Shown: in pieces, positions 4,875 through 36,683 of the stretch | Layout: each line of letters starts with the position of its first letter | Numbering within the stretch: position 1 is the stretch's first letter | From: Allomuricauda sp. | Lineage (GTDB): Bacteria; Bacteroidota; Bacteroidia; Flavobacteriales; Flavobacteriaceae | NCBI GenBank assembly: GCA_028284725.1 | Contig: JANQRD010000270.1 | Coordinates: forward strand, 1-36,683 | DNA length: 36,683 nt | Direction of reading: 5' to 3' | Notes under the pieces: generated by a model | The model's database searches: none | The model's input: the letters and a program-made list of their open reading frames with translations, nothing else | Told to the model about the DNA's origin: nothing | Program-made: the position numbers and the translations under genes

Positions 4875-5366
4875 ATGGGGAAAAAATTGCTATTAATTGC
4901 CCTTCTTATTGTAGCGGGATGTAAGGGTATTTCACAAGAAGAGAAAAAAGAAAGTAAAAAAGAGGTGGCGTATGCAGTCACCAAAACCGATGCAGAATGG
5001 AAGGCGGAATTAACGGATATGGAGTATTATGTACTTCGCAAAGCGGCCACGGAAAGTGCTTTTTCCAGTGAACTATTAAATAACAAGGAAAAAGGAACCT
5101 ATGTATGTGCGGCCTGTGCTACCCCTTTGTTCCACAGTGAGCACAAATTTGATTCCGGTACCGGATGGCCCAGTTTCGACCGTGAAATTGAGGGTAATGT
5201 TGCCTACGATGTGGATTATAAGATAGGCTATCCCCGCACAGAAGAGCACTGTGCCACCTGCGGAGGCCATTTGGGGCATGTTTTTAACGATGGTCCCAGA
5301 AACACCACCGGAAAAAGGCATTGTATTAACGGTGTCGCCCTCGATTTCATCCCAGATTCCAACTAA
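4875..5366 (+). CDS. msrB: Peptide-methionine (R)-S-oxide reductase, exported lipoprotein form
   Basis: A 163-residue MsrB that reduces methionine-R-sulfoxide in proteins. The N-terminus MGKKLLLIALLIVAGCKG is a lipoprotein signal with the lipobox Cys at residue 16, so the enzyme is predicted to be membrane-anchored in the periplasm. A charged Glu/Lys linker follows, then the MsrB domain from about residue 37. Zinc ligands are C78/C81 and C126/C129; the catalytic Cys is C150 in RHCINGVALDF. The GWPSF loop has Thr96 (SGTGWPSF) where many MsrBs place the resolving Cys, so recycling probably uses another thiol or an outside partner. It lies 28 nt upstream of a second, cytosolic msrB, suggesting one transcript. 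Confidence 0.94.
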   Translation: MGKKLLLIALLIVAGCKGISQEEKKESKKEVAYAVTKTDAEWKAELTDMEYYVLRKAATESAFSSELLNNKEKGTYVCAACATPLFHSEHKFDSGTGWPSFDREIEGNVAYDVDYKIGYPRTEEHCATCGGHLGHVFNDGPRNTTGKRHCINGVALDFIPDSN

Positions 5367-5394: not shown

Positions 5395-5802
5395 ATGGAA
5401 AAGAAATACGGAGTGGAAAAAACCGAGAACGAGTGGAGAGCTGAACTTTCTCCAGAAGAGTATTATGTACTTCGACAAAAAGGTACGGAAAGACCTCATA
5501 CGGGCGAATTCAACCTTCATTTTGAAAATGGGGATTACCACTGCAAGGCCTGCAATGCCAAACTATTTGAGAGTGAACACAAATTTGAAAGTGGCTGTGG
5601 TTGGCCCTCATTTGACGAAGCCGTAGAAGGTGCCATTGAGTATATTAGGGATACATCGCATGGTATGATTCGAACCGAAACGGTCTGCGCCAATTGCGGA
5701 AGCCATTTGGGACATGTCTTTAACGATGGTCCTAGAGAAACTACTGGACAGCGGTATTGTATCAATTCAGTAAGTATCGGTTTTGATCCTGACGAAAGTT
5801 AG
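5395..5802 (+). CDS. msrB: Peptide-methionine (R)-S-oxide reductase, cytosolic form
   Basis: A 135-residue MsrB without signal peptide, a paralogue of the gene just upstream. Zinc ligands are C50/C53 and C98/C101; the catalytic Cys is C122 in QRYCINSVSIGF. It has C68 in SGCGWPSF, the usual resolving-Cys position, which the upstream lipoprotein copy lacks. The two domains share long blocks (GHVFNDGPR, the WPSF loop, EYYVLR), so they likely arose by duplication followed by specialisation for two compartments. The ATG at 5395 is chosen because an ATG at 5391 is in another frame. Family assignment is secure. Confidence 0.94.
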   Translation: MEKKYGVEKTENEWRAELSPEEYYVLRQKGTERPHTGEFNLHFENGDYHCKACNAKLFESEHKFESGCGWPSFDEAVEGAIEYIRDTSHGMIRTETVCANCGSHLGHVFNDGPRETTGQRYCINSVSIGFDPDES

Positions 5803-28284: not shown

Positions 28285-29475
28285 TTATGAAATAACCCCT
28301 GAGCCAATTAGTTCATCATCTTGATACCACGCCACGAACTGCCCTTTGGTGATTGCGGATTGTTTATCAACAAAATCCACATAAAGCCCCCCATCAGTTC
28401 TGTACAATATAGCAGGTTGAAGTGGTTGTCGATACCGTATTCGGGCCATCACTTCCATACTTTCATCCACTTCCAGTGCCAAATCCTTTCGCACCCAATG
28501 CAGCTCATCATCCTTTACAAAAAGTGTATGTCTTAAAAGTCCGGGATGGGATTTTCCTTGTCCAGTGTAAATGATGTTTTGCTCCACATCCGTATCAATA
28601 ACGAAAAGTGGTTCTTTGGTGCCTCCTACATTTAGGCCCTTTCGCTGCCCAATGGTAAAATAATGTGCCCCTTGATGTTCTCCAACAACTTTTCCATCAT
28701 CCAAGGAGTATTCAGGTTTTTCTGCGTTGAACGCCAACTCCTCAGTTTTGCTATCGAATATCGGAGCTGTAGTTGAAAACTGTTGCGCATCACTGGGCAC
28801 TTCAACAATGACCCCTTTTTTTGGTTTAAGCTTCTGTTGTAAAAATTCGGGCAGATGTACCTTGCCGATAAAGCAAAGTCCTTGGGAATCCTTTTTATCG
28901 GCGGTTATTAAATCGTTTTCTGCAGCTATTTTTCTCACTTCAGGCTTTAAAAGCTCGCCTATGGGAAACAACGTTTTAGAAAGTTGTTCCTGGGACAACT
29001 GGCACAGAAAGTACGACTGATCTTTATTGGGATCTTTGCCCGCAAGGAGCTGATAGGTTTCTGAACCATCCTCATTTTTAATTATGCCCTTTCGACAATA
29101 ATGTCCCGTAGCTACGTAATCCGCACCCAACTGCATTGCAATCTTCAGGAAGACATCAAACTTTATTTCCCGATTGCACAGCACGTCCGGATTCGGCGTA
29201 CGTCCCTTTTCGTATTCACTGAACATGTAGTCCACGATACGTTCTTTGTACTCCGCACTCAAATCCACCGTTTGAAAGGGGATTCCAAGTTTTTCCGCAA
29301 CAATGAGTGCATCATTGCTGTCTTCCACCCAAGGACATTCATCGGAAATAATCACGGAATCATCATGCCAATTCTTCATAAAAAGGCCGATCACCTCATA
29401 TCCCTGCTCTTTTAGGAGGTATGCCGCCACACTGGAATCCACTCCTCCAGAAAGTCCTACAACTACCTTTTTCAT
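28285..29475 (-). CDS. mnmA: tRNA-specific 2-thiouridylase
   Basis: 396 residues. It puts the 2-thio group on U34 of the tRNAs for Lys, Glu and Gln, using ATP and a persulfide relay. The PP-loop is [17 protein letters not shown] (about 5-21). Catalytic Cys100 lies in [12 protein letters not shown] and the second Cys201 in [11 protein letters not shown]. coli MnmA uses Cys102 and Cys199. TGHYCRK and [10 protein letters not shown] are further family motifs. It carries a short insertion around residues 215-250 relative to the compact enzyme, as in other Bacteroidota. A perfect -7 element (TATTTTTG) lies about 20 nt upstream. Confidence 0.96.
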
Positions 29476-29747: not shown

Positions 29748-31799
29748 ATGAAAATGAAAACCATCCCACATTTAGGAAAATTCCTTGTTTTACTTATTTT
29801 TTCCCTATTCATTGTTTCCTGTGGCAAAAGTGATGACAATGGCGATTCCGGAACCGATGACGATGTCAGTACTACCGATGATGATCCAAATGGGGAAAAT
29901 AGCCTTCCCAATATCATTGAATTGGCAGAGACGGTCGACATGCTCAGCTCATTATTGGATGCTGTGGATGCCGCCGATGCTGGCTTGGAAGAGGCCCTGT
30001 CCGGTGATGGCCCATTTACCGTCTTCGCCCCTACCAATGACGCGTTCAATGATTTACTAGATCAATTGGAGGATTTTGAGTCTTTGGGAGACTTTGATGA
30101 CGATACCGAAAAGGAACTATTGGCCGAAATTCTAAAATATCATGTCGTGAGTGGAGCCGCCGAGTTCTCTACCGATTTGTCTGATGGGGACATTTTGGAA
30201 ACCTTGCAAACAGAAACATTAACTGTGAATATTGACGGAAGCGTTTTTATTCAAGATAAAACAGAAGATCTTGCAGAGGTAGTAAGCGCCGATAATGACG
30301 CTTCAAACGGTGTGGTGCACATCATCAATAAGATTTTGTTGCCTCAAGCTGTTCTGGATGCACTTTTTCCAAAACCGAGCATTGTTGAATTGGTTGTGGA
30401 AATGGAGGAGCTTTCCTTGTTAGAGGAAGCGGTTCTAAAAGCTGAGTTGGACGATGATTTGTCCGCCGAGGGGCCATTTACCCTCTTTGCCCCTACGAAT
30501 ACGGCGATAGAGGAACTATTTGAACTTCTGGGAGATAGTTTCAATAGTTTTGATGATTTTGACAATATTGTGGAACTGGAAATACTTAAACAGATTCTAG
30601 AATACCATGTTGTTCCAGGTAACATTACCTCTGCTGATTTAGCTCCTGGCACACAAGCTACCCTGCTGTCTGATGAAAGCATTGAAATCATTGCCTCTGG
30701 CGATACCTTCGTTATTGGTGATGCTTCGGATGTGGATGCCAATTTGCTCAATATTGATAACTTGGGAAGCAATGGTGTGGTGCACATCATAGACAAAATT
30801 TTGATTCCGCAGGAAGTGCAGGATTTCTTGGATACCCTTAACCCCGATGACCCCACTTCAGGGATTCCAACAATAAGAGAGTTAGTGGAAAGCTCAGAAG
30901 AATTCTCCTTCCTCAAAGAAGCTTTGGAACTAACTGGTTTACTGGAAACTTTAGGGGAAGAAGGCCCATACACCGTTTTCGCCCCTACCAATGACACCAT
31001 TAACCTGCTCTTTGGACTTCTGGGTGAATCATTGAGCAGTTTGGAGGATTTTGACCTTGATTTTGAAATAGACCTGCTGCGACAAGTATTGAGCTATCAC
31101 GTATTGCCTGAGGTTGTTGCTTCGAGCGATTTAGCTGTTGGTAACGTGAACACCTTGTTACCAGAGGACCAGCTTGGGATAGGTTTCGAAGACGGTGATT
31201 TTTTTTTGCAGGATGCAATTGGGTTGAATGTTGATATTCTAATTACCGACATCCCAGCTGGGAATGGGGTGATCCACACTATAGATAGGATCTTAGTGCC
31301 ACAATCCGTGATAGACACCTTAGTTAGTGAAGCTGAAAGCACGCTTTTGGCTCTTTTGGAGGAGCTTGATGATCTCGACCTATGTTTGAGTGCATTTATA
31401 ATGGTACGCGACGAGTTTGAAGATGCCATACATGAAGAGTTCACTTTTTTCCTTCCAACCAATCAGGCATTTTTGGAACTGTTCGACGAACTGGATGAAA
31501 TCGATTCCTTGGCAGATTTTGATACCGAAGAAGAGCTTAGGTTACTTGGAGAAATTCTTGCATATCATTTCATAGAGGGTAATAAAGCCACATCTTCCGA
31601 TTTATTCGACCAACAAGAATTGCTTACACTTCAAGGAGAAACATTAAACATAAATATTGATAATAATGTGTACATCCTTGATAAAACCGAAGTACCCTCA
31701 AAAGTGACCTCTCCAGATACAGAAATATTGAATGGGGTCGTTCACATTATAGATAAAGTATTGCTTCCGCAGGAAGTGTTGGAACAGCTTTCATCCTAG
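29748..31799 (+). CDS. Multi-fasciclin (FAS1) lipoprotein, four domains
   Basis: 683 residues. The N-terminal lipoprotein signal ends FSLFIVSCGKS (Cys25), and an Asp/Thr/Gly-rich linker of about 30 residues follows. Four FAS1 domains lie at about residues 55-205, 211-358, 374-522 and 530-680. Domains 1-3 show the family H1 motif FTVFAPTNDAF (or a close variant), a YHVV box and the closing NGVVHIIDKILLPQ. The fourth is divergent: FTFFLPTNQAF, YHFIEG, and a Cys in DDLDLCLSAF. FAS1 domains mediate weak adhesion to protein or polysaccharide. The protein is very acidic and nearly Cys-free. Surface exposure is inferred. Its own terminator follows, so it is a separate unit from the next FAS1 gene. 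Confidence 0.93.
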   Translation: MKMKTIPHLGKFLVLLIFSLFIVSCGKSDDNGDSGTDDDVSTTDDDPNGENSLPNIIELAETVDMLSSLLDAVDAADAGLEEALSGDGPFTVFAPTNDAFNDLLDQLEDFESLGDFDDDTEKELLAEILKYHVVSGAAEFSTDLSDGDILETLQTETLTVNIDGSVFIQDKTEDLAEVVSADNDASNGVVHIINKILLPQAVLDALFPKPSIVELVVEMEELSLLEEAVLKAELDDDLSAEGPFTLFAPTNTAIEELFELLGDSFNSFDDFDNIVELEILKQILEYHVVPGNITSADLAPGTQATLLSDESIEIIASGDTFVIGDASDVDANLLNIDNLGSNGVVHIIDKILIPQEVQDFLDTLNPDDPTSGIPTIRELVESSEEFSFLKEALELTGLLETLGEEGPYTVFAPTNDTINLLFGLLGESLSSLEDFDLDFEIDLLRQVLSYHVLPEVVASSDLAVGNVNTLLPEDQLGIGFEDGDFFLQDAIGLNVDILITDIPAGNGVIHTIDRILVPQSVIDTLVSEAESTLLALLEELDDLDLCLSAFIMVRDEFEDAIHEEFTFFLPTNQAFLELFDELDEIDSLADFDTEEELRLLGEILAYHFIEGNKATSSDLFDQQELLTLQGETLNINIDNNVYILDKTEVPSKVTSPDTEILNGVVHIIDKVLLPQEVLEQLSS

Positions 31800-31822
31800 A
31801 ATATTAGTTTTTCCTTTACGTT

Positions 31823-31860
31823 AAAGTCCGGCCAGCCCTTTGGGGCATGTCGGATTTTTT
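31823..31860 (+). terminator. Terminator after the first FAS1 gene
   Basis: A long imperfect hairpin (AAAGTCCGGC... / ...TGTCGGATTTT, with inner GCCC-TTT-GGGGC pairing and two internal mismatches) ends in a T run. It starts 24 nt after the stop at 31799. Confidence 0.75.
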
Positions 31861-31926
31861 ATTGAGTCTATTGATTTTTCATGAAAAATGTTAAATTTTT
31901 TATAAAAAAGAATAAGCAAAAGCAAC

Positions 31927-31934
31927 TACTTTTG
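31927..31934 (+). promoter_or_regulatory. -7 promoter element (TACTTTTG) of the second FAS1 gene
   Basis: A perfect TAnnTTTG match 52 bases before the ATG at 31987. The upstream 50 bases are extremely AT-rich without a clear TTG, as an UP-like region would be. It supports independent transcription of this gene. Confidence 0.45.
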
Positions 31935-31986
31935 TTTAAAAGTATCTTTCAAGAGTTGAACAAATTATTTATCTAAAAACAATCTC

Positions 31987-33879
31987 ATGAAAGCACTGAT
32001 CAAATTGTCCCAATTTTCCCTACTATTTCTTGCTCTAATATTGACGTCCTGTGAAAGCGACGACGACAACGACATTCTAAATCCACCACAAAGCGATACT
32101 GATATCGTAGAGGCCGCCCAAGCAACTTCAGATTTAAGCAGTTTGGTAAGTGCATTGCAAAAGGCTGATGAAAGTGCCAACAACGACTTGGTCAGTGCTT
32201 TAAGTGGGGAAGGGCCTTTCACGGTCTTTGCACCTACCAACGCTGCCTTTGCGGATCTACTCGCCCAATTGGATGGATTCGATTCCTTGGATGACTTCAA
32301 TACGCAGGAACTTCAAGATTTACTTGCTGTCATCCTAACCTACCACGTAGTTCCAGGAGTTGGTGCCATTTCCACAACCTTAACCGACGGACAAACCCTC
32401 ACAACGCTACAAGGAAGTAGTTTGGAAGTCTCTACTCAAGGTGGAGTGTTCATTTCTGATGCAACCGATGTCGATGCCGAGGTTACCACGGCAGATGTGG
32501 TAGCTTCCAATGGTGTAGTACATATTATAGATAAAGTATTGCTGCCACAAACTATTTTGGATGACTTGGCTGACATTATTTTGGTACCCATCACCGATTT
32601 GGTGGTAGGAAATGAAAATCTCGAAAGCTTACTTTTCGCATTGACTGCAGCTGATGGAGATTTGCCCACGGTTTTGAGAGGTGACGGACCATTTACTGTA
32701 CTTGCTCCCACCGATAACGCATTTGAAACCTTCTTGGATGGCTCCGATTTGGCAGACATTCCAGTTGACGTTTTAACCAATGTACTTTTAAATCACGTCA
32801 TTGAAGGAGCACTGCTTCAAGCAGATTTAGAAGGTTTAGGTTCCGGATATACCAACACTTTGGCCACCGGAGCAGGAGATGAAAATATCAGTATCTTCTT
32901 CGATACTGCAGGAGGAGTGGAATTCAACGGTGTTTCTTCCGTAGAAACTGCTGATGTAAAAGCACTAAACGGTGTGGTTCATATAGTTGATGCCGTAATA
33001 GATCTACCTAATATTGTAGACCATGCCGTGGCCAATCCAAGCCTTACATCTTTGGTCGCTGCTTTGACCGATGGTGGAAATACCACATTTACTGACTTGT
33101 TGTCCGATGAAGCTCAAGACTTTACGGTATTTGCACCAGTTAACGATGCCTTTGCAGCATTCACAAATCCTAGTTCCAATGATATCAATGATATTCTTTC
33201 CAATCACGTTATTGTCGGGACGGCAGCATTCTCCTCTGGGTTGACTAACTCATATGTCAATACTGCAGCTGAATTCGACACCGACGAGCCATTTAGTCTG
33301 TACATTAACACTGACGACGGCGTAACACTGAATGGTATCAGTAATGTTGCCATCCCAGACATCGTGGCCACAAATGGCGTAATACATGCCGTGGACGCTG
33401 TTATCGATTTGCCAAATTTAGTAGAATTTGTATCCGCAGACCCCAACTTCGATTCTTTAGAGGCCGCATTGACCACGGACGGGCAGCCTGACTTCATATT
33501 AACACTATTGGGAGATGGTCCTTTCACCGTCTTTGCTCCAACCAATGAGGCATTCCAGGCTTTGTTGGACAGCAACGATATGTGGAATGGTTTGGGGGAC
33601 ATAGATTCTGCATTGCTAACAAGCGTATTACAGCACCATGTGATTTCGGGAGCAAACATCCGTTCAGGTGATCTTACTCCAAATGGAGATACGGTGACTC
33701 CAGCCACTCTTGAAGGTGATACTTTCACAATTACACTTCCAGGCACCAATGAGAACATTGCCGATGTTACCGATGGTTCGGGCAATACTGGAATCGGAAT
33801 TGATGTAGTTGATCTACAAGCTGCAAACGGTGTAATCCATGTTTTGGATGCCGTTTTGATTCCTGATACCACAAATTAA
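31987..33879 (+). CDS. Multi-fasciclin (FAS1) lipoprotein, four domains of two subtypes
   Basis: 630 residues. The signal MKALIKLSQFSLLFLALILTSC gives a lipobox Cys22, with an acidic linker (ESDDDND) after it. FAS1 domains lie at about 40-195, 202-340, 342-475 and 477-628. Domains 1 and 4 are of the long type (about 150 residues, FTVFAPTN, YHVVPG/HHVISG). Domains 2 and 3 are shorter (about 135 residues) with a different beta-rich middle (EFNGVSSVETADVKALNGVVHIVDAVIDLP and VTLNGISNVAIPDIVATNGVIHAVDAVIDLP) and NHVI instead of YHVV. The mix suggests domain shuffling. It is followed by a perfect palindromic terminator. Likely role: a surface adhesion or matrix protein; not proven. Confidence 0.93.
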   Translation: MKALIKLSQFSLLFLALILTSCESDDDNDILNPPQSDTDIVEAAQATSDLSSLVSALQKADESANNDLVSALSGEGPFTVFAPTNAAFADLLAQLDGFDSLDDFNTQELQDLLAVILTYHVVPGVGAISTTLTDGQTLTTLQGSSLEVSTQGGVFISDATDVDAEVTTADVVASNGVVHIIDKVLLPQTILDDLADIILVPITDLVVGNENLESLLFALTAADGDLPTVLRGDGPFTVLAPTDNAFETFLDGSDLADIPVDVLTNVLLNHVIEGALLQADLEGLGSGYTNTLATGAGDENISIFFDTAGGVEFNGVSSVETADVKALNGVVHIVDAVIDLPNIVDHAVANPSLTSLVAALTDGGNTTFTDLLSDEAQDFTVFAPVNDAFAAFTNPSSNDINDILSNHVIVGTAAFSSGLTNSYVNTAAEFDTDEPFSLYINTDDGVTLNGISNVAIPDIVATNGVIHAVDAVIDLPNLVEFVSADPNFDSLEAALTTDGQPDFILTLLGDGPFTVFAPTNEAFQALLDSNDMWNGLGDIDSALLTSVLQHHVISGANIRSGDLTPNGDTVTPATLEGDTFTITLPGTNENIADVTDGSGNTGIGIDVVDLQAANGVIHVLDAVLIPDTTN

Positions 33880-33883
33880 AATT

Positions 33884-33913
33884 AAAAAAGGGCCATGATC
33901 ATGGCCCTTTTTT
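33884..33913. terminator. Perfect 30-nt palindromic terminator between FAS1 genes 2 and 3
   Basis: A perfect palindrome centred between 33898 and 33899, with A6 on one side, T6 on the other and a GC-rich middle (GGGCCATGATCATGGCCC). It begins 5 nt after the stop codon. By symmetry it could terminate transcription from both directions. Confidence 0.88.
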
Positions 33914-33950
33914 CATCCCACGATTAATATAACCCTTAAACACTTTTGAA

Positions 33951-36683
33951 ATGAAAAAGATACTACGATTAAGGAGCTATCTCGTTTTGATTGCTCTTAC
34001 GGTATTTTCATTTTCTTCCTGTGATGAAGAAGATGACGAACAAGCAGCGGACCTAGGGTCTGTTGAAGCACAAAGTAATATTGTTGAAACCGCACAAGAA
34101 ACCGATGCACTCAGCTCATTGGTGGATGCTTTGCTGAAAGCAGACGAAAATGAAGATTCAGACTTGGTTACCACCTTAAGTGGTGAAGGGCCATTTACGG
34201 TATTCGCCCCAACAAACGATGCGTTTACCGCCCTACTTGAAAGTCTGGACGACTTTGACTCCTTAGAAGACTTTGATACGGATGAAGAAAGGACACTTTT
34301 GGCCACTATATTGCAGTATCATGTCGTTTTGGGACAAGCAGTTGCTTCAACAGAGCTGTCGGATGGGCAATCCATTACGACTGTCCAAGGAGAGGATGTT
34401 ACAGTTGTTATAAATGAAGGTGTATTTATTGGAGATGCCACCGATACCGATGCAGAGGTTATCATTCCAGATGTTGATACTTCCAATGGCATTGTGCATG
34501 TTATCGATAAGGTTTTATTACCTCAAGCTATCATAGATGCGCTCAATGAAGGAGGGAACTTAGTAGATCTTGTAGTGAACACTGAAACCCTATCTTTATT
34601 GGAAGCAGCAGTAATCAAAGCTGGCCTTGTGGAAACTTTAAGTGGCGAAGGGCCTTTTACCGTATTTGCACCTACGAATGATGCTTTCGAAGCTTTATTA
34701 ATGGCTTTGGGCAGTGATTACATGAGTCTGGACGATTTTGATACCGAAGAAGAGATTGAACTGCTTACCAATATTTTGTTGTACCATGTCATTCCAGCGC
34801 AGGTATTGGAAGCCGATTTGGAAGCAGGCGAAGTACCAACAGCTTTTGCAGAAAACCCATTGACCATTATTGAGGAAGAGGGGACATTTGTTATCGGGGA
34901 TGCCTCGGATGAGAATGCCAATATTACCGCGACAGACTTTATTGCTACCAATGGCGTAGCCCACACCATAGACAAAGTGTTGTTGCCTCAAGCCGCTATC
35001 GATTTTGTGGCCTCCTTACAATTGAAGGACATTGTGGAAATTGCCATAGAGACAGATGATCTCAGTTTGTTGGTTGAAGCCTTGCAAACTGCCAATGCAG
35101 GCTTGGTAGAAACCTTAAGTGGGGATGGGCCATTTACAGTCTTCGCGCCCACAAACAATGCATTTGTTGCCTTACTGGAAGTACTTGGTGATGATTATAA
35201 CAGCTTGGCTGATTTTGATACCCAGGAAGAAATCGATTTACTGATCGACATTCTTACCTATCACGTTGTTTCCGGAACAGCCGCATTTTCCACTGACCTG
35301 TCCGATGGACAAAAAATACCGACAGTTTTTGGCGATGAATTGGGCATCAACCTAAAAGATGGAACCGTACACGTTGTAGATGCTACGGATGACAATGCCA
35401 CCGTTATTCTTCCCGATGTAAAAGCGAGCAATGGCGTGGTCCATGTGATCGACAAGGTACTGCTCCCACAGGTAGCACTTGATTTTGTGGCCTCCTTACA
35501 ATTAAAAACCATTGTGGAGATTGCCATAGAAACGGATGACCTCAGTTTGTTGGTTAAGGCATTGCAAACGGCCAATGCAGGACTCGTGGAAACCTTGAGT
35601 GGCGATGGACCCTTTACAGTGTTCGCACCTACCAATGAGGCTTTTGGTGATTTGCTAGATCTTTTGGGGGATGACTACCACAGCCTATCCGACTTCGATA
35701 CCCAAGAAGAAATTGATTTACTGATCGATATTCTCACCTACCATGTGGTTTCAGGAGTTGCTGCCTTCTCTACTGATCTTTCAGATGGACAACAAATCCC
35801 AACAGTTTTTGGCGATGAATTGGGCATCAACCTCAAAGATGGTACTGTAAATGTTGTGGATGCAACGGACGAAAATGCAACTGTTGTCCTTCCCGATGTT
35901 GAGGCCAGCAATGGGGTGGTTCATGTCATCAACAAAGTGTTGCTTCCACAGGTGGCGCTGGATTTTGTGGCAAAACTACAATTGAAAACGATTGTGGAAA
36001 TCGCCATAGAAACGGATGACCTCAGCCTATTGGTAGAAGCATTACAGACCGCCAATGCAGGACTTGTGGAAACCTTAAGCGGAGATGGGCCATTTACGGT
36101 ATTCGCTCCCACCAATGAAGCCTTCGGTGACTTGTTGGACCTTTTGGGTGATGACTTCCATAGTCTTTCTGACTTTGACACTCCCGAGGAACTGGATTTA
36201 TTGGTCACTGTACTTACCTACCATGTAGTGGCAGGAACTGCTGCCTTTTCTACCGATCTATCCAACGGCCAGCAAATAGAGACCTTCCAGGGAGAAAAAG
36301 TGGGCATCAACATAAAGAATGGAACGGTCCATATTGAAGACGCGACAGATGAAAATGCAACTGTAGTTCTGCCTGATGTTGAAGCGAGCAACGGAGTGGT
36401 CCATGTAATCAACAAAGTGCTGCTTCCACAAGCAGCTTTGGATATACTTTCCCCTCCCACTCCCAATATTGTGGAATTGGCACAGTCGGTTGACGATTTG
36501 AGCCTTTTGGTCGATGCATTGATACAAGCAGATGCCGGCTTGGTAGATGTGTTGAGCGGTGAAGGTCCGTTCACGGTATTTGCACCAACAAATGAAGCAT
36601 TTGTTGATCTTCTACACGCATTGGGCAATCAATATAATAGTTTGGAGGATTTCGATACTGATGAAGAAAAAGAATTGTTGGCC
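33951..36683 (+). CDS. Multi-fasciclin (FAS1) lipoprotein, at least six domains (cut by window end)
   Basis: At least 911 residues, with no stop before the window ends. The ATG at 33951 opens a lipoprotein signal ending TVFSFSSC (Cys24), followed by an acidic linker. FAS1 domains begin at about residues 43, 204, 357, 517, 677 and 839; the sixth is cut off. Each shows an FTVFAPTN H1 motif, and each complete domain shows YHVV/YHVI and a closing NG(V/I)(V/A)H(V/T)I(D/N)KVLLPQ. Domains 3-5 are near copies at DNA level with a period of exactly 480 nt (160 codons), so they arose by recent in-frame tandem duplication. The gene lies 37 nt after a palindromic terminator; no clear -7 motif is seen in that gap. 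Function as a surface adhesin is inferred. Confidence 0.93.
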   Translation, partial: MKKILRLRSYLVLIALTVFSFSSCDEEDDEQAADLGSVEAQSNIVETAQETDALSSLVDALLKADENEDSDLVTTLSGEGPFTVFAPTNDAFTALLESLDDFDSLEDFDTDEERTLLATILQYHVVLGQAVASTELSDGQSITTVQGEDVTVVINEGVFIGDATDTDAEVIIPDVDTSNGIVHVIDKVLLPQAIIDALNEGGNLVDLVVNTETLSLLEAAVIKAGLVETLSGEGPFTVFAPTNDAFEALLMALGSDYMSLDDFDTEEEIELLTNILLYHVIPAQVLEADLEAGEVPTAFAENPLTIIEEEGTFVIGDASDENANITATDFIATNGVAHTIDKVLLPQAAIDFVASLQLKDIVEIAIETDDLSLLVEALQTANAGLVETLSGDGPFTVFAPTNNAFVALLEVLGDDYNSLADFDTQEEIDLLIDILTYHVVSGTAAFSTDLSDGQKIPTVFGDELGINLKDGTVHVVDATDDNATVILPDVKASNGVVHVIDKVLLPQVALDFVASLQLKTIVEIAIETDDLSLLVKALQTANAGLVETLSGDGPFTVFAPTNEAFGDLLDLLGDDYHSLSDFDTQEEIDLLIDILTYHVVSGVAAFSTDLSDGQQIPTVFGDELGINLKDGTVNVVDATDENATVVLPDVEASNGVVHVINKVLLPQVALDFVAKLQLKTIVEIAIETDDLSLLVEALQTANAGLVETLSGDGPFTVFAPTNEAFGDLLDLLGDDFHSLSDFDTPEELDLLVTVLTYHVVAGTAAFSTDLSNGQQIETFQGEKVGINIKNGTVHIEDATDENATVVLPDVEASNGVVHVINKVLLPQAALDILSPPTPNIVELAQSVDDLSLLVDALIQADAGLVDVLSGEGPFTVFAPTNEAFVDLLHALGNQYNSLEDFDTDEEKELLA
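35001..36440 (+). repeat. Three tandem 480-bp units encoding FAS1 domains 3-5 of the third protein
   Basis: Units 35001-35480, 35481-35960 and 35961-36440 each open with GATTTTGTGG and keep exact register, including CTCAG at the same offset and GCCAATGCAGG. Comparing units 1 and 2 by eye, about 16 of 160 residues differ, and the first 100 bases differ at about 12 positions, mostly third-codon bases. No frame break occurs. Preceding domains have a 465-nt spacing and are clearly older. Confidence 0.9.

Follow-up and report, generated by a model that had tools for sequence, protein, structure and literature searches.

A multi-FAS1 lipoprotein locus of marine flavobacteria and its candidate place in a light-response regulon

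The last 7 kb of a 36,683-nucleotide (nt) stretch of Allomuricauda sp. DNA (contig JANQRD010000270.1 of assembly GCA_028284725.1, hereafter the window) carry three consecutive lipoprotein genes, numbered 1 to 3, whose products consist almost entirely of FAS1 domains: four, four and six respectively. Our analysis suggests that these periostin-like surface lipoproteins belong to a light or photoprotection regulon, perhaps governed by a repressor of the LitR/CarH type, a reading that we judge moderately probable. Its starting point is an array of GTTWAAC-like sites at the promoter of gene 2. The assembly numbers 270 contigs and is 89% complete. Within it the window is contig C98, the right end of which falls inside gene 3, and the host belongs to Flagellimonas/Allomuricauda. 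The named relatives are the best 80 of 191, and counts on 81 loci refer to those 80 plus the window.

The array was found because a search for TAnnTTTG, the consensus of the Bacteroidota -7 element, drew attention to the region upstream of gene 2. In itself TAnnTTTG was set aside as too weak a signal for gene 2, occurring in 22 of the 73 upstreams analysed against a shuffled mean of 8.8 (eight of the 81 loci have no usable gene-2 start). GTTWAAC-like sites lie near 0, 21, 45 and 66 nt within the promoter region. Pairs of GTTWAA exactly 21 nt apart number 62 in the 73 upstreams against a Markov mean of 0.1 (maximum 3), statistics in which the relatives are not independent; a strict 21-nt pair is present in 45 upstreams, rising to 55 with GTTNA, and further peaks fall at 45 and 66 nt. 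In the window, the last two sites enclose TATCTTTC, which we take to be a near match to the Bacteroidota -7 element.

A layout like that of gene 2 also precedes an SRPBCC-like gene (assigned by eye) and its photolyase (PF00875), where TAnnTTTG stands 19–24 nt 5′ of the start codon in 24 of 27 promoters. A matrix was trained on 26 of these 27 photolyase-operon promoters, with sites found by a relaxed expression and two of 29 photolyase loci (L282 and L283) dropped from this step. All 73 gene-2 upstreams score above the 99th percentile of shuffles, which here and for hairpin folds preserve single-base composition only. At a cut-off of 14 bits, which was our own choice, the matrix matches 78 of 80 gene-2 promoters and yields 179 matches there, compared with 17 in the remainder of 1.67 Mb; judged by position, 16 of the 17 sit in the gap ahead of a FAS1 gene or no further than about 350 nt from it. 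As for the two promoters with no operator hit, L170 begins inside the gene, and in L167 the start of the open reading frame (ORF) is misplaced and an operator hit lies 115 nt before the match. Background percentiles are contaminated by gene 2 and the divergent mnmA, which share a gap; we relied on the shuffles, the 1.67-Mb scan and a control of 46 kb of large B12-binding-gene loci (metH-like by size), in which no operator match was found.

The operator recurs at genes of light biology. Of 60 genomes, 12 have a proteorhodopsin scoring over the cut-off, and the operator is present in 10 of these 12 loci, five of them with two pairs 42–45 nt apart, as for gene 2; two rhodopsin matches below the cut-off lay outside the operator scan. 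A longer genome pattern gave 85 matches (about 51 distinct places) in eight genomes against three for the reversed control. It was designed from the photolyase and gene-2 sites, and those two groups are not independent of it; the rhodopsin, msrA, glycosylase/peroxiredoxin and second photolyase places are. Neighbours were read at 22 of the roughly 51 places, with representatives Pfam-tested and the rest matched by eye, and 11 adjoin photobiology or oxidative-damage genes: rhodopsin/beta-carotene dioxygenase (two), photolyase (two), the SRPBCC-photolyase operon (one), msrA, encoding peptide methionine sulfoxide reductase (two), and HhH-GPD glycosylase/peroxiredoxin (four). In a comparison of flavobacterial genomes, passages of which report that rhodopsin, blh and photolyase-like genes alone are common to six rhodopsin-bearing genomes and absent from 13 others, joint regulation of the three was speculated upon (PMC2668756). 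Outside the gene 2 locus, one single-domain FAS1 gene (genome G003) has a strong operator copy at L034:1240-1273 (35 bits), and the matrix scan found no operator in the remaining 28 of 29 mostly single-FAS1 loci.

A candidate regulator is present. Each of the 16 genomes searched encodes a B12-binding_2 match within a frame 300–318 codons long, and contig C139 of the window's own genome encodes a protein with MerR_1 and B12-binding_2, followed by a desaturase-like oxidoreductase (desaturase by eye). Directly 5′ of the MerR-B12 gene start lies TTTGTTTAAY in all eight readable loci of 15. The LitR/CarH regulons of Pseudomonas (PplR/PmlR2) offer a parallel, in that LitR represses photolyase/cryptochrome-type genes in the dark from several sites covering the promoter (PMC9758184). 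We envisage the locus as a conserved set of outer-membrane lipoproteins whose tandem FAS1 rods are of periostin/TGFBIp type. Two 21-bp-spaced GTTWAAC-like pairs lie over the promoter of its core, gene 2, as before proteorhodopsin, and photolyase and cryptochrome genes have the operator mostly as one pair. A dark-bound LitR/CarH (MerR) repressor would most likely occupy the sites and be released by light, so that the coat would be made in lit cells. Transcription would probably arrive at gene 3 by reading through the terminator of gene 2, so that less of the gene-3 product would be made, and gene 1 would stand outside operator control. Acidic surface rods could serve adhesion, matrix or aggregate formation, their length varied through duplication of an inner domain of gene 3.

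Several observations weigh against this proposal. In the window itself the operator is one of the weakest, scoring 14.7 bits, near the lowest of the 73; its second site is degenerate and no strict 21-nt GTTWAA pair is present, while against the genome pattern it has one mismatch at 31933-31964. No rhodopsin match was found in the window's genome at its stated completeness, and no operator in two of the 12 proteorhodopsin loci. As a genome-wide pattern, TGTTWAAC-N13-TGTTWAAC gave 72 matches against 78 for the reversed control in 25 genomes, and 168 against 553 with three mismatches; having shown no excess over the control, it was dropped for the matrix and the longer pattern. At eight of the 22 places read, the neighbours have no evident tie to light or none is near (htpG twice, CIA30 and others), two further places lie by a mevalonate-type kinase (by eye, with no Pfam hit) and one by a flavin reductase next to an FAD monooxygenase. 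The MerR-B12 gene's own promoter scores −1.2 to 12.3 bits, below the 14-bit cut-off, in 15 of 15 cases. The operator core of Pseudomonas LitR also differs, being TGTACA-N12 (PMC9758184) as opposed to GTTTAAC-N14 here, where the regulator is a candidate, and a 21-bp spacing also suits LytTR regulators, whose repeats are spaced in that way (PMC6193735). Finally, adhesion is argued from analogy.

A hairpin with a T-run lies 3′ of both gene 1 and gene 2, in agreement with the terminators seen in the initial annotation. The gap between genes 2 and 3 measures 66–81 nt in 18 genomes, and in all 18 short gaps a hairpin of −16.2 to −23.6 kcal/mol lies at most 50 nt past the gene-2 stop, with stems that differ in sequence; each folds below all 200 shuffles, and a stricter terminator criterion loses four of the 18. 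Since 49 of 60 other genomes likewise have a fold of −9 kcal/mol or lower 3′ of gene 2, the hairpin appears to be gene 2's terminator. From hairpin to gene-3 start is about 35 nt, with no operator in the short gap, and the matrix scan found an operator within 200 nt 5′ of gene 3 in three of 22 cases. In five loci with a gap of at least 196 nt (L137, L141, L142, L148 and L149), gene 3 has an operator copy of its own. No operator was found before gene 1 in the five copies tested of six. By this arrangement genes 2 and 3 probably form a unit of two, transcription of gene 3 requiring read-through past the terminator of gene 2; the intervening hairpin could possibly act as an attenuator of gene 3, and a very short promoter behind it is also possible. 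Gene 1, having no operator, may be independently expressed.

The protein assignments are firm. The Pfam search (Fasciclin, PF02469) recovers FAS1 in all three products, with four, four and six stretches over the curated cut-off, each domain scoring above 22 bits, and the assignment is beyond chance because the whole-protein E-values are 1.6e-98, 2.1e-87 and 6.5e-150 for genes 1, 2 and 3; no other Pfam family scores over the cut-off in them. The H1 motif is present in 14 of 14 domains and the H2 motif in 13 inside the window, that of the fourteenth lying on contig C180. This last domain breaks off at Pfam position 55 of 123 at the window end. The first 18 bases of C180 equal the last 18 of the window, an 18-mer found at just those two places in the genome, and C180 carries the gene-3 reading frame onward to a stop codon at base 264, giving a product of 992 amino acids; hyp186, yidC and a pyrG-like gene come next. 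The broken domain matches, in both its halves, the consensus of the last gene-3 domain of the relatives, which makes a collapsed repeat at the break unlikely, and where relatives have unbroken contigs, (hyp186 and) yidC again come after gene 3. The array therefore has 14 domains, in line with the at least 14 that the initial annotation had counted in three consecutive lipoproteins, and no more FAS1 genes before yidC.

That annotation had also described the proteins as lipobox-bearing, strongly acidic and nearly Cys-free, and rightly so. All three have a mature isoelectric point (pI) of 4.05, with 15.6–22.6% D+E and 0.8–2.9% K+R, and Cys is confined to the lipobox save one extra in gene 1 (gene 3 as far as the window reaches). 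Their lipobox starts read CGKSDD, CESDDD and CDEEDD for genes 1, 2 and 3. The lipoprotein export signal (LES) of Bacteroidetes is SDDDD in B. fragilis and SDDFE in F. johnsoniae (PMC5080379). By a criterion of our own, a lipobox followed by at least two D/E at +2 to +6, an LES-like start is found in 78 of 80 gene-2, 20 of 23 gene-3 and four of six gene-1 proteins, and SDDDN or SDDDD occurs exactly in 53 of the 80 gene-2 proteins. On these signals the three are surface-type lipoproteins, presumably exposed at the cell surface. A structure model of the gene-2 product (mean predicted local distance difference test, pLDDT, of 85.5) finds its best solved Foldseek matches in human TGFBIp and periostin, along all four domains, led by TGFBIp 7asg (E 2.7e-38) and including 5nv6, 5yjg and 5yjh at 22–26% identity. 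Whole-chain template-modelling (TM) scores are just 0.34–0.39, so the angles between domains differ or are badly predicted. Sequence search likewise gives TGFBIp and periostin as the best solved relatives of genes 2 and 3, in the same order as Foldseek; the gene-3 model (pLDDT 62, predicted TM-score 0.35) was set aside.

The locus is conserved as a slot. The named relatives belong to Flagellimonas, Allomuricauda and Muricauda, then Maribacter, Robiginitalea, Ulvibacterium, Croceitalea and others, and the order mnmA–FAS1–yidC is complete in 72 of the 80; one border is absent in L134, L137, L157, L170 and L171, and neither border is present in L104, L105 and L112. When ORFs with fewer than two FAS1 domains are excluded from the architectures and contig-cut genes counted as seen, 55 of the 81 loci have one gene with at least two FAS1 domains, 18 have two, seven have three and one has four. 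The total is four domains in 51 loci and 13 in four; 14 occur in the window alone. A first search found FAS1 matches in 40 of 40 same-genus genomes (host included), and at family level the gene-2 profile matches 172 of 199 genomes, many in frames of 450–1000 codons, though a match may represent one domain. Multi-FAS1 proteins are therefore ordinary within this family, yet unusual against the picture in passages of a review, where prokaryotic FAS1 proteins are typically single-domain (PMC6032426). The initial statement that bacterial FAS1 proteins usually carry one or two domains comes near the review's typical one and does not describe this family, in which long multi-FAS1 frames are common.

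Gene 2 is a near-constant core, by comparison of these loci, and genes 1 and 3 come and go. On a flanking-gene tree of 77 tips (four of 81 loci omitted), gene 1 is present at six, the window included; of the 75 tips at which gene 2 is complete, 68 have four domains in it, six have three and one has five; and 22 copies of gene 3 have four, five or six domains in four, 13 and five cases (the window counting as six after joining). For four-domain gene 2, the nearest neighbour outside the genome sits at the same position in 68/72, 69/72, 71/72 and 67/71 cases for domains d1 to d4, and for four-domain gene 1 in 18 of 20 domains. The middle domains of gene 3 fall out of register in this comparison. 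Its d3-d4 pair is the most similar in all 18 copies with five or six domains, at 67% to 95% nucleotide identity, with synonymous divergence (dS) down to 0.20 in L107; in the window the same pair is the most alike, at 79% of bases. As dS is saturated for most domain pairs, only nucleotide identity and order were used. On this sequence comparison, the domain number of gene 3 varies by duplication of one inner domain, the d3/d4 unit. Six-domain copies are scattered among five-domain ones on the tree. The state of gene 3 (absent, four, five or six) requires 13 changes on 76 tips against 20.9 with shuffled labels, and domain number within the 22 carriers requires seven against 8.2; gene-3 presence is therefore partly inherited, and domain number changes repeatedly with almost no phylogenetic signal. 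The rapid evolution of length and domain number first proposed for the whole array holds for gene 3, and for gene 1 in its sporadic presence, and fails for gene 2; relatives are not uniform, differing in both domain and gene number.

Two alternatives to a light regulon bear on the control of these genes. The operator might belong to a LytTR-type regulator, two-component or density-sensing, with the FAS1 proteins as biofilm adhesins produced in response to social or surface cues and the photolyase and rhodopsin genes sharing the regulator for other reasons. We regard this as unlikely, although the exact 21-nt spacing and the GTT(A/T)A core correspond to the 9-bp plus 12-bp arrangement given for LytTR in passages of PMC6193735. 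The unit is near-palindromic and direct and inverted order are therefore indistinguishable; the 11 places beside photobiology or oxidative-damage genes and the layout shared by the rhodopsin loci also speak for light. Moreover the sites flank the likely -7 element, an arrangement better suited to a repressor than to an upstream activator. The other alternative, put forward in the initial annotation, is an adhesion module in which each of the three genes has a promoter of its own and expression is independent or alternative. The hairpins 3′ of genes 1 and 2 accord with it, as do the gene 1–gene 2 gaps of 152–198 nt, which leave room for a promoter, and the conservation that marks the gene-2 hairpin as a real terminator even in genomes with a single gene (the 49 of 60). 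Against this, the 18 short gaps leave gene 3 little space and no operator, and where the gap is long the same operator precedes gene 3, which argues for co-regulation; we hold independent expression of all three genes to be distinctly unlikely. For genes 2 and 3 the evidence does not support it, and it may apply to gene 1.

A further explanation concerns function: the FAS1 rods might bind carotenoid or another long hydrophobic pigment and form a light-induced surface sunscreen, like AstaP of green algae. A light-type regulon would suit such a role, AstaP is a stress-inducible FAS1 carotenoid binder (PMC10147662), and AstaP-pink1 ranks well among solved relatives with a single domain, both by fold and by sequence (1e-16 for gene 2, below Rhodobacter Fdp). 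In the same source a FAS1 homologue from cyanobacteria fails to bind carotenoid, and binding does not hinge on single residues (PMC10147662); TGFBIp and periostin are also the nearer relatives along the full length. We consider pigment binding highly unlikely. A wider picture, in which lit marine flavobacteria are coated with periostin-like multi-FAS1 lipoproteins co-regulated with proteorhodopsin and photolyases, the carotenoid-carrying or aggregate-tying rods forming an extracellular sunscreen or matrix and domain duplication adjusting its length, is a long shot; AstaP-like binding of pigment, or the rafting towards light proposed for diatom fasciclins, would be speculative analogies.

Among known systems, TGFBIp (beta-ig-h3) and periostin are animal matrix proteins that share four tandem FAS1 domains with genes 1 and 2. 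The products described here differ in being bacterial lipoproteins with an export signal, a pI of 4.05 and up to six domains; the N-terminal cysteine-rich (CROPT) domain was not found in them, and they have at most one non-lipobox Cys. We suppose that the three would work like TGFBIp and periostin and do not file them as members of that family. Rhodobacter Fdp (1w7d), which is associated with adherence (PMC7561615), and Mycobacterium MPT70 (1nyo) share the FAS1 fold in one domain as against four to six here. AstaP resembles the present proteins in its stress-inducible, photoprotective setting (PMC10147662) and differs as a single-domain carotenoid binder, carotenoid binding by the multi-domain proteins being only conjectural. 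Diatom fasciclins, found together with rhodopsins under light limitation, are FAS1 adhesion proteins tied to light acquisition and hypothesised to raft towards light; they differ in being eukaryotic, secreted and raised under light limitation (PMC10939406). A cyanobacterial fasciclin protein is overrepresented in the exoprotein pool under continuous light (PMC4937211). No FAS1 gene appears among the Pseudomonas PplR/PmlR2 regulon genes in the passages of PMC9758184. Open-access titles and abstract starts, with subscription journals mostly outside them, yielded neither a flavobacterial fasciclin in a light regulon nor a light-regulon operator in marine Bacteroidota (LitR/CarH, proteorhodopsin, photolyase). 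The FAS1 domain family is thus known and the layout uncommon in bacteria; what is new is the place in an apparent light regulon.

Features of the FAS1 locus, in window coordinates
Feature	Position	Strand	Remark
mnmA, conserved left border of slot	28285..29475	-	right border yidC on C180
Gene 1, lipoprotein, 4 FAS1 domains	29748..31799	+	Pfam profile search
Gene 1 FAS1 domains	29940-30344, 30411-30809, 30900-31301, 31416-31769	+	
Terminator-like hairpin and T-run 3′ of gene 1	31824..31857	+	equivalents in the other five gene 1–gene 2 gaps (L129, L140, L157, L161, L169)
Operator array 5′ of gene 2	31890..31961	+	site spacing 21/23/21
Operator sites	GTTAAAT 31890, degenerate site 31911, GTTTAAA 31934, GTTGAAC 31955	+	
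TATCTTTC	31943..31950	+	near TAnnTTTG; between last two operator sites
Gene 2, lipoprotein CESDDDND, 4 FAS1 domains	31987..33879	+	core gene of locus
Gene 2 FAS1 domains	32131-32547, 32626-33000, 33043-33405, 33493-33864	+	
13-bp hairpin in the gene 2–gene 3 gap, with A and T runs on its flanks	33884..33913		strand not set
Gene 3, lipoprotein, 6 FAS1 domains	33951..36683, on to base 264 of contig C180	+	
Gene 3 FAS1 domains	34152-34523, 34590-34988, 35058-35468, 35538-35948, 36018-36428, 36498-end	+	

Other FAS1 genes were seen in the slot and elsewhere. An extra two-domain FAS1 gene, distant from gene 2, occupies the slot at L083:4883-5839 (the genome of L169) and in L141, L148, L149, L168 and L171. 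Between mnmA and gene 2, a one-domain scrap nearest to gene 1 (L085:10082-10303, also in L100) is probably a gene-1 remnant. In the window's genome (G000), a single-FAS1 lipoprotein on contig C20 (L021:4638-5219) lies between nosZ-like and cytochrome c genes, surroundings that by eye resemble a nitrous-oxide reductase cluster, and on contig C153 (L022:8093-8695) another FAS1 lipoprotein comes immediately after a SusC/SusD-like pair and ahead of a sialidase-like gene (also by eye). The hyp186 gene (L019:558-1118) encodes a very basic protein of secreted type, convergent to the acidic FAS1 genes, with a BLAST match in 26 of the 80 named relatives. Far to the left in the window, at 4875-5366 and 5395-5802, is a tandem pair of MsrB-like genes (by eye), of which one has a lipobox-like signal.

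Bacterial FAS1 proteins are widespread and their role is mostly obscure. An operator common to gene 2 of Flagellimonas, Maribacter and their kin, to proteorhodopsin and to photolyase would turn the label of adhesin into a testable claim about the response to light. Marine Bacteroidota matter for ocean photobiology, and for this group it would also supply a candidate light-regulon operator; gene 3, in duplicating its inner domain, may provide a natural series for rod length.

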